64,000 bases of DNA from Salipiger sp. IMCC34102 (GTDB lineage Bacteria > Pseudomonadota > Alphaproteobacteria > Rhodobacterales > Rhodobacteraceae), in the NCBI RefSeq assembly GCF_004145405.1, contig NZ_SELQ01000006.1:62001-126000 (forward strand). The letters are read 5' to 3'. The translations under genes were made by a program, and so were the position numbers. The notes beneath the pieces were generated by a model. It had not been told where the DNA came from and did not search any database. It saw only the letters and a program-made list of their open reading frames with translations. Within the stretch, counting starts at the first letter, position 1. Each line of letters begins with the position of its first letter. Below are positions 56,905 through 59,559 of this stretch, one piece after another.

Positions 56905-57983
56905 GTCGCAGCCTCCTTCAGCGCCACCACCAGGTCGGGGCGGATCACGCCGCCCACCGCGGGCACGGCACGATCACCCAGACGCGCCGTCAGCGCGTCG
57001 TAGCGCCCGCCGGTCGCCACCGGCTGCGGATCGCCGGAGCCCGCGTAGAAGCCGAAGACGAAACCGTCGTAATACTCCAGCGAGGTGCGTCCGTAGCTGC
57101 CCTCGAAGTCGAGCGCGTCCACGTCGATCCCCCGCGCGTCAAGCGCGTCGAGCCGCGCGGCCATCCGTGTGACGGCCTCGCCGATCGCGGGCAGATCTAC
57201 CGCGATGTCGCGCAACCGGCCCAGTGCCTCTGGCGCAGAGGCCCGGAGCGACAGGATCGTGTCGAGCAGCATGATCTCCTCGCCCGAGATCGGCGGGGTC
57301 GCCGCATCCGCGCGCAGGGCGGCGATCCGCGCCTCGATCTCGGCCAGCGTGCGCTTGCCGGAAAGGACGGGCGCCTGCGCCAGGGGGTCGGTCTGCGCCA
57401 GCAAGGCCGCGCGCGTGGGCGGCACCGGCGTGCGGCCGCCGAAACGGTCCAGCAGCGCGCGGAACCGGCGCGGACGCCACAGGTGCCGCAAGAGCGCATC
57501 CTGGCGCGCCCGGCTGGTGCGCAGACCCGTGACGGCTGCGCGCAGCACGCCGATGTCCCCGGTGGCCGCCCGCAGGTCGAGACCGTCCAGCGCCGCGCGC
57601 AAAAGCGCGAAGACCTCGGCTTCCGCCTCGGCCGGTTCACGCGCGCCCATGATCTCGAACCCGACTTGCACGAATTCCGCCGCGCGGTCGGGGTCGCTGT
57701 CCTGCTTGCGGTAGACCGGGCCCGCGTAGGTGTAGCGGGCCTCGCCCCCGGCGCGCGCCATGTGCGCCTGCACCAACGGCACGGTGAAGTCGGGCCGCAG
57801 CACCAGCTCGCCCCGTGCCGCGTCCCCGGTCAGGTAGGACCGGGCGCGGATCTCCTCTCCGTAGAGGTCGAGCAGGATGTCCGCGGGCAACAGGGTGTCG
57901 GTGTCGAACCGATCGGCGCCCGCGTCCTCGAACCTGCGCAAGACCTGTTCCGCGTAGGCCGTGACCGCGCGCGGATCAGTCAT
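56898..57983 (-). CDS. hisZ: ATP phosphoribosyltransferase regulatory subunit HisZ
   Basis: 361 aa, from ATG 57983 (8 bases inside hisS). It is a histidyl-tRNA-synthetase paralogue without tRNA function: L-R-P-D-F-T-V-P-L near 71-79, Y-A-G-P-V-Y-R-K near 95, [10 protein letters not shown] near 299, A-T-G-G-R-Y-D near 321. Activates short HisG and gives histidine feedback. Part of hisS-hisZ-hisG. Confidence 0.92.
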
Positions 57984-59559
57984 CGGCCTGCCCGGCCAGC
58001 AGGTCGCGGATGTGAGCGACCAGATCGGTGCGCGCGATTTCCGCCTGGCTGGGGCGGTCCTTCCATTCCTCCAGCGTGGCGTTCTGGGCGATCTTCGCGC
58101 CAAGGATCAGGTCCTTGACCTGCACCACGTCGCGTCCGAATTCGTCCTCGCCCGCGATGACCGCCACCGGGCTGCCGCGCTTGTCCGCGTATTTCAGCTG
58201 GTTGCCGAAATTCTTCGGGTTGCCGAGGTAGACCTCCGCCCGGATGCCCGCCTGGCGCAGTTCGGACACCATCGCCTGGTAGTCGGGCATGCGCGCCCGA
58301 TCCATCACCGTGACGATCACCGGACCATCGGCGGCAGTCTCCAGCCGGCCCTTCGCCTCCAGCGCCCCCAGCAGCCGATCGACCCCGATGGAGACGCCGG
58401 TTGCCGGCACCTCCTGCCCCGTGAAGCGCTTGACGAGGTCATCGTAGCGCCCGCCCCCCGCGACGGAGCCGAAGTTGCGCGGGCGGCCCTTCTCGTCCGT
58501 GACCTCGAAGGTCAGCTCCGCCTCGTAGACCGGCCCGGTGTAATAGCCAAGGCCACGCACCACGGAGGGGTCGATGACGATGCGGTCGGGGCCGTAGCCT
58601 TGGGCGGCGAGCAGATCAGCAATCTCGCGCAGCTCTTCGACGCCCTTCAGCCCGGTCTCATTCTCCCCGACGATATCCGTGAGCGTCTGCAACGTCGCCG
58701 CGTTGTCCGGAGGGTGGGCCCCGACCTCGGAGGGGGTGGTAGCCCCCTCCCGGGGGGAGGTCGGGGGCTGCCCGGCGGTGTCGCCGGGCGCGTTATCACC
58801 CGACACCCGCGAACCGACCGCCAGAAAGTCCATCACCGGACGCATCTGCGCCTCATCCAGCCCCGCCCCCTTTGTGAAATCCCCGCTCTCGTCCTCGCGG
58901 CCTTTTCCCAGCAGCGCCTGAACGCCCTCGATCCCCAGCCGGTCCAGCTTGTCGATGGCGCGCAGCACGATGCCGCGCTCGGCCTCCTTGTCGTCGCCGG
59001 ACAGACCCGCGACCTCCAGCACACCGTTCAGGACCTTGCGGTTGTTCACCCGGATCACGTAGTCGCCGCGCTCGATACCCACGGCTTCCAGGCAATCGGA
59101 CAGCATCGCACAGATCTCGGCGTCGGCGGCGACGGAAGGCGCGCCCACCGTATCCGCATCGCATTGATAGAATTGGCGAAAGCGCCCCGGACCGGGCTTT
59201 TCGTTGCGCCAGACGGGGCCCATGGCGTAGCGGCGGTAGGGCGAGGGCAGATCGTTGCGATACTGCGCCGCGACCCGCGCCAGGGGCGCCGTCAGGTCAT
59301 AGCGCAGCGCCAACCAATCGCCGTCCTCCTCCCATGCGAAGACACCTTCGTTGGGGCGGTCCACGTCCGGAAGAAACTTGCCAAGCGCCTCGACCGTCTC
59401 CACGGCGGAAGTTTCGAGCGGGTCGAACCCGTAAAGCCTATAGACCTCGGCGATCTTGGCCAGCATGGCGCTGCGATGGGTGACCTGGGCGCCGAAGTAG
59501 TCGCGGAAGCCCTTGGGCGTCTGGGCCTTGGGGCGCGGAGTCTTCTTGGGCTTGGCCAT
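57976..59559 (-). CDS. hisS: Histidyl-tRNA synthetase with internal insertion
   Basis: 527 aa. Class II motif 1 at the start, motif 2 [14 protein letters not shown] near 116, histidine motifs L-G-Y-Y-T-G near 336 and A-G-G-R-Y-D-D near 363, then an anticodon domain. Between about residues 250 and 285 is a stretch rich in Pro, Gly, Ser, Thr and acidic residues absent from the conserved architecture; it is encoded by the palindromic element at 58719-58788. The frame stays open across it. Remaining motifs look intact. Confidence 0.9.
58719..58788. repeat. Palindromic element inserted in hisS
   Basis: Nested inverted repeats: outer CCCCGACCTC (58719-58728) with GAGGTCGGGG (58757-58766); inner GGAGGGGG (58729-58736) with CCCCCTCC (58743-58750); then a second hairpin CCCGGCG-GTGT-CGCCGGG (58771-58788). 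The element stays in frame in hisS. It may be a member of a dispersed palindromic repeat family. Confidence 0.7.

Follow-up and report, generated by a model that had tools for sequence, protein, structure and literature searches.

How a palindromic stretch of DNA comes to lie in frame inside a conserved protein gene is the question raised by the histidyl-tRNA synthetase gene (hisS) of Salipiger sp. IMCC34102. In the window, by which we mean the whole stretch of 64,000 nucleotides that was analyzed, hisS lies on the reverse strand at positions 57979–59559 and encodes 527 aa, and the TIGR00442 hisS model is matched in two stretches. The element core inside this gene spans 78 nt on the same strand (read from 58789 to 58712, with its ends set from the copy collection described below), and the hisS frame stays open across it. 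An earlier note had claimed here an in-frame palindromic element with nested 10- and 8-base inverted repeats and a second hairpin of 7 bases; the element and its nested repeats were confirmed, and the stem of the second hairpin was found to be 8 bp, not 7.

On the hisS strand, the GC-rich element consists of a 20-nt hairpin followed by two long pairing arms. The hairpin, P1 (58770–58789, reverse strand), has an 8-bp stem and a 4-nt loop and is supported by inverted repeats, by the predicted fold, and by pair counts across copies. It is followed on the same strand by a 5′ arm (58741–58769) with two possible pairings, either within itself (P2) or with the 3′ arm, and by a 3′ arm (58719–58736), which pairs with the 5′ arm through 8 bp on the inside and 10 bp on the outside. 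Exact 8-bp inverted repeats are present at 58729–58736/58743–58750 and at 58770–58777/58782–58789 (the P1 stem), the 10-bp outer pair is CCCCGACCTC (58719–58728 on the forward strand and 58757–58766 on the reverse strand), and a 22-nt enclosing pair (58707–58728/58757–58778) is 77% complementary. When this element was folded as RNA or as DNA, the structure was in each case stronger than those of all 200 dinucleotide shuffles (z of −3.7 and −4.4, respectively). The core is flanked on the reverse strand by an imperfect direct repeat, with the left word GATAACGCG at 58789–58797 and the right word GACAACGCG at 58699–58707, which have 8 of 9 bases in common.

The earlier note had put the coding length of this insertion at about 35 residues, close to the 33 extra residues found when this HisS was compared with compact relatives (102 versus 69 residues between the same landmarks). 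The corresponding 99 nt of extra DNA is longer than the element core. In an AlphaFold2 model of moderate quality (36-sequence alignment, mean pLDDT 71.6), the insert forms a loop between two helices, residues 254–282 have pLDDT values below 50 (10-residue block means of 41, 26, and 29), and the best Foldseek matches of the whole prediction are histidyl-tRNA synthetases. The model suggests that the ∼30-residue insert is probably disordered. Only one HisS match was found in this genome, which is rated 100% complete.

The insertion is not shared by related HisS proteins. The element gave no significant match in any of 109 other hisS loci (best chance-level E values of 0.38–0.44; some organisms are counted twice in this set). 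Loktanella, Yoonia, Roseobacter, and Sulfitobacter are among the named hisS relatives. Among eight genomes of the same genus, the HisS loop is compact in four (G001, G003, G005, and G008) and contains other long inserts in the remaining four (G002, G004, G006, and G007), and the element has no match in these other HisS inserts. As a separate observation, unrelated inserts, tens of residues long and often acidic, occur in this same loop in many relatives (window positions 58703–58830 and loci L055–L062 and L086–L162). A selected function of the insert in HisS is very improbable; the insert sits in the sole HisS found and keeps the frame, but it is missing from all of these other loci, is predicted to be disordered, and has similar peptides in unrelated proteins.

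BLAST analysis of the same genome identified two further strong copies of the element, both of them intergenic. One of these (C10:534102, E = 1.1e-10) follows an rlmN-like gene, and the other (C10:545886, E = 2.4e-9) lies between recO-like and acyl-CoA dehydrogenase-like genes, all gene names being read from translations. The third-best match, inside a gene read from its translation as thioredoxin-reductase-like, looks like chance and was set aside. Separately, at L003:1620–1800, the acyl-CoA dehydrogenase-like gene seems to have its 3′ end duplicated alongside, with hairpins around TCCACTGGA.

A nucleotide model built from an alignment of the three copies in this genome (R1) identified the element in 28 of 101 relatives, each a member of the same family, with 33 copies in genome G076. 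A wider model (R2) was built from 28 copies; at E ≤ 0.001, and with up to 20 candidates scored in each genome, it had a match in 133 of 295 family genomes. The Salipiger genome has a low copy number of six matches, and in the hisS copy the family model matches 58741–58789 at 63.8 bits. When a sample of 190 genomes from the class was searched, R2 matched two, both of the same family, and it found no match in one further genome of this family or in the other ∼187 genomes. Matches were also present in 156 plasmid records (Pseudosulfitobacter, Phaeobacter, Leisingera, Tritonibacter, Paroceanicella, and Ruegeria). No element match was found in phage records, which speaks against a phage origin, and an exact pattern, narrow enough to be a weak test, found nothing in viral contigs.

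From the existence of these other copies and the lack of the insertion in the 109 other hisS loci, we conclude that the earlier reading of this stretch as a repeat is supported. The hisS stretch is likely to be a copy of a palindromic element that is dispersed among the Rhodobacteraceae, a family name used broadly here; NCBI places Leisingera and Phaeobacter in the Roseobacteraceae. These copies also bear on whether the insert arose by local, lineage-specific growth of a variable HisS loop that is palindromic by chance. The variability of this loop within the genus and its predicted position between two helices would fit such growth, but the DNA matches independent copies in this genome and in the family, and the other HisS inserts lack any match to it, so that this origin is hardly credible.

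To describe the element in general terms, 168 unique copies were collected, and the 132 in which a 3′ arm was recognized were used for length and flank counts (the other 36 were excluded from them). In the core plan, P1 and a 5′ arm are followed by a middle that varies in length and then by a 3′ arm able to pair with the 5′ arm. A short form of less than 110 nt, mostly 75–86 nt, accounts for 87 of the 132 copies, and another group is mostly 139–146 nt long. The core opens with a 4-nt word, usually GCCC, and closes with this word again and not with its complement. Pairing is maintained across copies by two-sided changes: in an alignment fitted to P1 alone (A4), 92.6% of 430 cells are paired with 30 two-sided changes versus 8.2 in shuffles, and in one fitted to the whole structure (A6), 98.4% of 1229 cells are paired with 101 versus 25.

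The two ends of the core also covary. In a set of 135 copies, chosen by a slightly different rule from the set of 132, 125 start with GCCC and 98 of these also end with it; the remaining 10 start with another word, which is repeated at the 3′ end in eight. Four of these eight come from a single spacer, that between cysS and cimA. Each internal word can pair with either core end, and since the script demanded an internal complement, its presence in all copies is no result. Either selection at the RNA level or correction of imperfect palindromes during replication may explain the covarying ends. The cysS-cimA spacer contains a copy in seven genera, which in five is reversed and in two direct with respect to cimA (cysS and cimA were named by models in L410 and by end motifs elsewhere), and it may be either a hot spot or a site that has been domesticated. 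The P1 hairpins in the spacer before cimA (L300, L301, L303, L304, L310, L408, and L410) differ strongly, and they stay paired.

These observations raise the possibility that the element is a functional structured RNA, or an mRNA-processing or terminator element, that is kept between genes and enters genes by accident. The two-sided changes in its stems, the matched non-GCCC ends (half of them from one spacer), and the recurrence of a copy between cysS and cimA in seven genera are consistent with this proposal. However, copies occur in both orientations, within one spacer as well as in genes, and they are present in seven unrelated genes. In addition, Rfam searches at the gathering score over 19 loci found no match except two tRNAs, those extended to E = 5 at two loci found none, and the three matches in the window are below threshold (E = 0.66 or worse); template switching during replication can likewise produce covariation in palindromes. 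Taken together, we regard a functional RNA as unlikely.

The seven genes that contain copies are hisS, nrdJ, bchD, a moeB/thiF-like gene, nnrD, a gene with FG-GAP and permease matches, and xdhC, and in all seven the copies are also matched by the nucleotide model R2. Among the 131 copies (45 + 86) found by nucleotide models alone, at least three are inside genes (hisS, nrdJ of G016, and nnrD of G220), the remainder being intergenic-looking or ambiguous as judged by open frames, codon-position G+C, and Pfam; further copies in genes were found by peptide profiles. Most copies appear to be intergenic. Many long open frames around copies were rejected as genes, being antisense or upstream extensions without a domain. 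Open frames of 360–1100 aa without a domain match cross many copies (L427–L438 and L301–L310) and could mislead annotation in GC-rich genomes.

Within these genes, the position of the element can be compared with domain matches. The nrdJ gene of G277 is in frame through the element and encodes 868 aa, with the barrel at 88–554, a helix-turn-helix at 596–640, the element at 649–676, and a TSCPD domain at 711–809. In nrdJ of G016 the element is at the corresponding place and the sequence downstream of it is shifted out of frame by one base, which reflects either an assembly error or a broken gene. Both of these genes (L225 and L299) encode an HTH_3 domain immediately ahead of the element, within the linker of the B12-dependent ribonucleotide reductase. 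In BchD of G341, the magnesium chelatase D model covers residues 40–589 and the element lies at 190–214. The ThiF/MoeB-like protein of G277 contains the element at 227–254, right after a ThiF match that ends at 224, and a reading of the downstream sequence suggests that the gene continues past it. In NnrD (YjeF) of five genera (G123, G175, G180, G220, and G314), the element is reversed and lies between the two domains of the protein. In a G145 protein to which permease, FG-GAP, and UnbV models match, the element follows the FG-GAP match at 493–526, and in Leisingera the element is inside genes annotated as XdhC by NCBI.

Peptide searches were performed with three forward frames and one of the three reverse frames, and long open frames were retrieved in part. 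The copies in hisS, nrdJ, bchD, and the ThiF/MoeB-like gene have one forward frame in common, that on which the peptide search was built; searches with the other two forward frames added one gene, that of G145, in frame 2. The xdhC copy also appears, in our reading, to be in frame 2. A single common reading frame was rejected as a rule on the basis of the xdhC and G145 genes in frame 2 and of the reversed nnrD copies. Selection for translatability was rejected as well: most frames of the short copies are open, but these 87 copies have 451 open frames versus 465 in dinucleotide shuffles, indicating that openness is a by-product of composition.

The xdhC gene provides alleles with and without the element. 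Seventeen records, all from Leisingera, contain one place covering at least 80% of this gene; eight have a long form of 1002–1008 nt (five L. aquaemixtae and three L. caerulea) and nine a short form of 894 nt, two of these from L. caerulea. Of seven alleles that were read, four long ones carry the element (40.8–60.9 bits) and three short ones lack it, and in each the sole stop is at the end of the gene. L. caerulea therefore has xdhC with the element in some strains and without it in others, S185 and S216 being strains that represent the two alleles. The long and short forms differ by 114 nt, or by 108 nt in one strain whose element has a further gap of 6 nt, with the reading frame preserved; this extra DNA exceeds the element core by ∼35 nt. 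Distant xdhC matches from Pseudosulfitobacter and Ruegeria are also split in two, with a section of the query absent, and this favors gain over loss.

Copies were also found in shortened form. At the site next to rfbB, the copy is complete in Phaeobacter piscinae P13, shortened in strain LSS9, and reduced to remnants in P. inhibens DSM 17395. This Phaeobacter site, considered as a candidate empty site, proved to hold the remnants of a deletion. L. aquaemixtae M602 is missing ∼24 nt from a copy that is intact in three other strains. These are deletion derivatives, and copies decay by internal deletion.

Whether the element is moved as a known type of mobile sequence was considered using its flanks, its ends, and candidate transposases. 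Over 132 copies there was no excess of 9-nt flank repeats (two at 8/9 or better versus ∼3.3 expected from shuffled flanks), which lends little support to the 9-bp imperfect direct repeat at hisS as a target-site duplication. Exact shared flank words of 5 nt (22 versus 11.0 expected) and 6 nt (7 versus 2.5 expected) are in mild excess in this set, which kinship of the copies could cause. The Y1 transposase domain (PF01797) had no match in 12 of 13 genomes picked for many copies, its sole match among the 13 has an internal stop, and it is present in 2 of 15 comparison genomes; its absence from the 12 disfavors mobilization by a RAYT. Two genomes, G076 and G242, have the core embedded in a larger unit that carries terminal inverted repeats GACCTCTGCATAA, making a transposase acting in trans plausible in these two; there are 71 sites for this repeat in G076 and 289 in the 2.2-Mb genome of G242. 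Six other genomes that were searched, including that of the Salipiger strain, have 0–4 such sites each. As an aside, the GACCTCTGCATAA units (L235, L264, and L194–L213) are MITE-like, and many have no listed core match.

It is a rather poor prospect that the element is a REP or REPIN moved by a RAYT, or an insertion sequence-derived MITE with terminal inverted repeats. The larger units in G076 and G242 and, in our reading, look-alike flanking words at a few G076 copies point in this direction. Against it are the end consensus of GCCC...GCCC rather than GTAG or CGTC (132–135 copies), the single copy-rich genome with a Y1 transposase, the scarcity of GACCTCTGCATAA sites elsewhere, and the lack of excess 9-nt flank repeats.

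The explanation that we favor, and consider probable, is a dispersed element whose copies inside genes are tolerated and later decay. Copies would spread at the level of DNA, through a transposase in trans or through hairpin-driven copying during replication. One that enters a gene could survive if its net length is a multiple of three, if its frame is free of stops (which is common by chance at such a G+C content), and if it lands in a loop or a linker between domains; internal deletion would erode it at a later stage. In hisS, the element would have entered a loop that varies among relatives, adding ∼30 probably disordered residues to what seems to be the sole HisS. We infer that it was gained there rather than lost and that the insert is neutral. 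Points that weigh against this explanation are the lack of excess 9-nt flank repeats, the single Y1 match with its internal stop among the copy-rich genomes, the nrdJ copy of G016 with its shifted frame, and the variability that the hisS loop shows in any case. The element may be called selfish, in the sense of being able to move, on the basis of its dispersal and the presence/absence difference in xdhC.

A tentative extension of this explanation is possible, in which the element would serve as a lasting supply of disordered linkers, inserted in either direction, for core enzymes (HisS, NrdJ, BchD, NnrD, and XdhC), would still be segregating within species, and would have a single internal guide that recognizes both covarying ends during copying. 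The excess of flank words and the extra DNA beyond the core slightly lower the odds of both the favored explanation and this extension.

Since xdhC alleles with and without the insert exist in one named species, the cost or benefit of the insert and its in-frame entry are testable in laboratory strains. In-frame palindromes as in Rickettsia are thereby extended to roseobacter-type bacteria, and annotators, who meet such inserts as odd linkers in good enzymes, would be helped by knowing of them. If the extension is true, palindromes across a family of mostly free-living bacteria repeatedly supply new protein segments. No report of such an element in Rhodobacterales was found in titles and abstract openings of the open-licence literature (subscription papers lie outside this scope), and the element was compared by description with systems known from other bacteria.

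CIR of Caulobacter and Brucella is tabulated with ERIC/RU-1, RU-2, RU-3, and Correia/NEMIS among small mobile MITE-like sequences (PMC2229807). Like these, the roseobacter element is non-autonomous, dispersed, and hairpin-forming, and some of them carry reading frames; unlike for them, no general terminal repeat or target-site duplication was found for it. The likeness to CIR, which is an alphaproteobacterial sequence, is one of description. GTAG- and CGTC-tagged REPs include intragenic copies in several species as well as RPE-4 and RPE-6 (PMC3733652); the words Rhodobacter, Roseobacter, Ruegeria, and alphaproteobacteria are absent from the main text of that paper. These REPs are likewise short palindromes that are mostly intergenic and in some cases inside genes, whereas the roseobacter element lacks GTAG or CGTC ends, is longer, and has two arms and a hairpin.

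Rickettsial palindromic elements (RPEs) are dispersed palindromes of ∼100–150 bp that occur in intergenic positions and also within conserved protein genes, to which they are fused in frame (PMC2229807 and PMC10969869); protein-coding palindromes of Wolbachia were a later addition, going by a title cited in PMC2229807. The roseobacter element differs from RPEs, to which it is likened by description, in its lineage, in its shorter common form, and in being mostly intergenic with few copies inside genes. The proposal that a similar repeat exists in this lineage, made from the hisS stretch, is supported by the dispersed copies and by the in-frame copies in six further genes. As a dispersed palindrome of ∼50–150 bp, with several copies per genome and some in frame in conserved genes, the element appears to behave like an RPE in another lineage, a likeness of behavior and not a claim that it is one.
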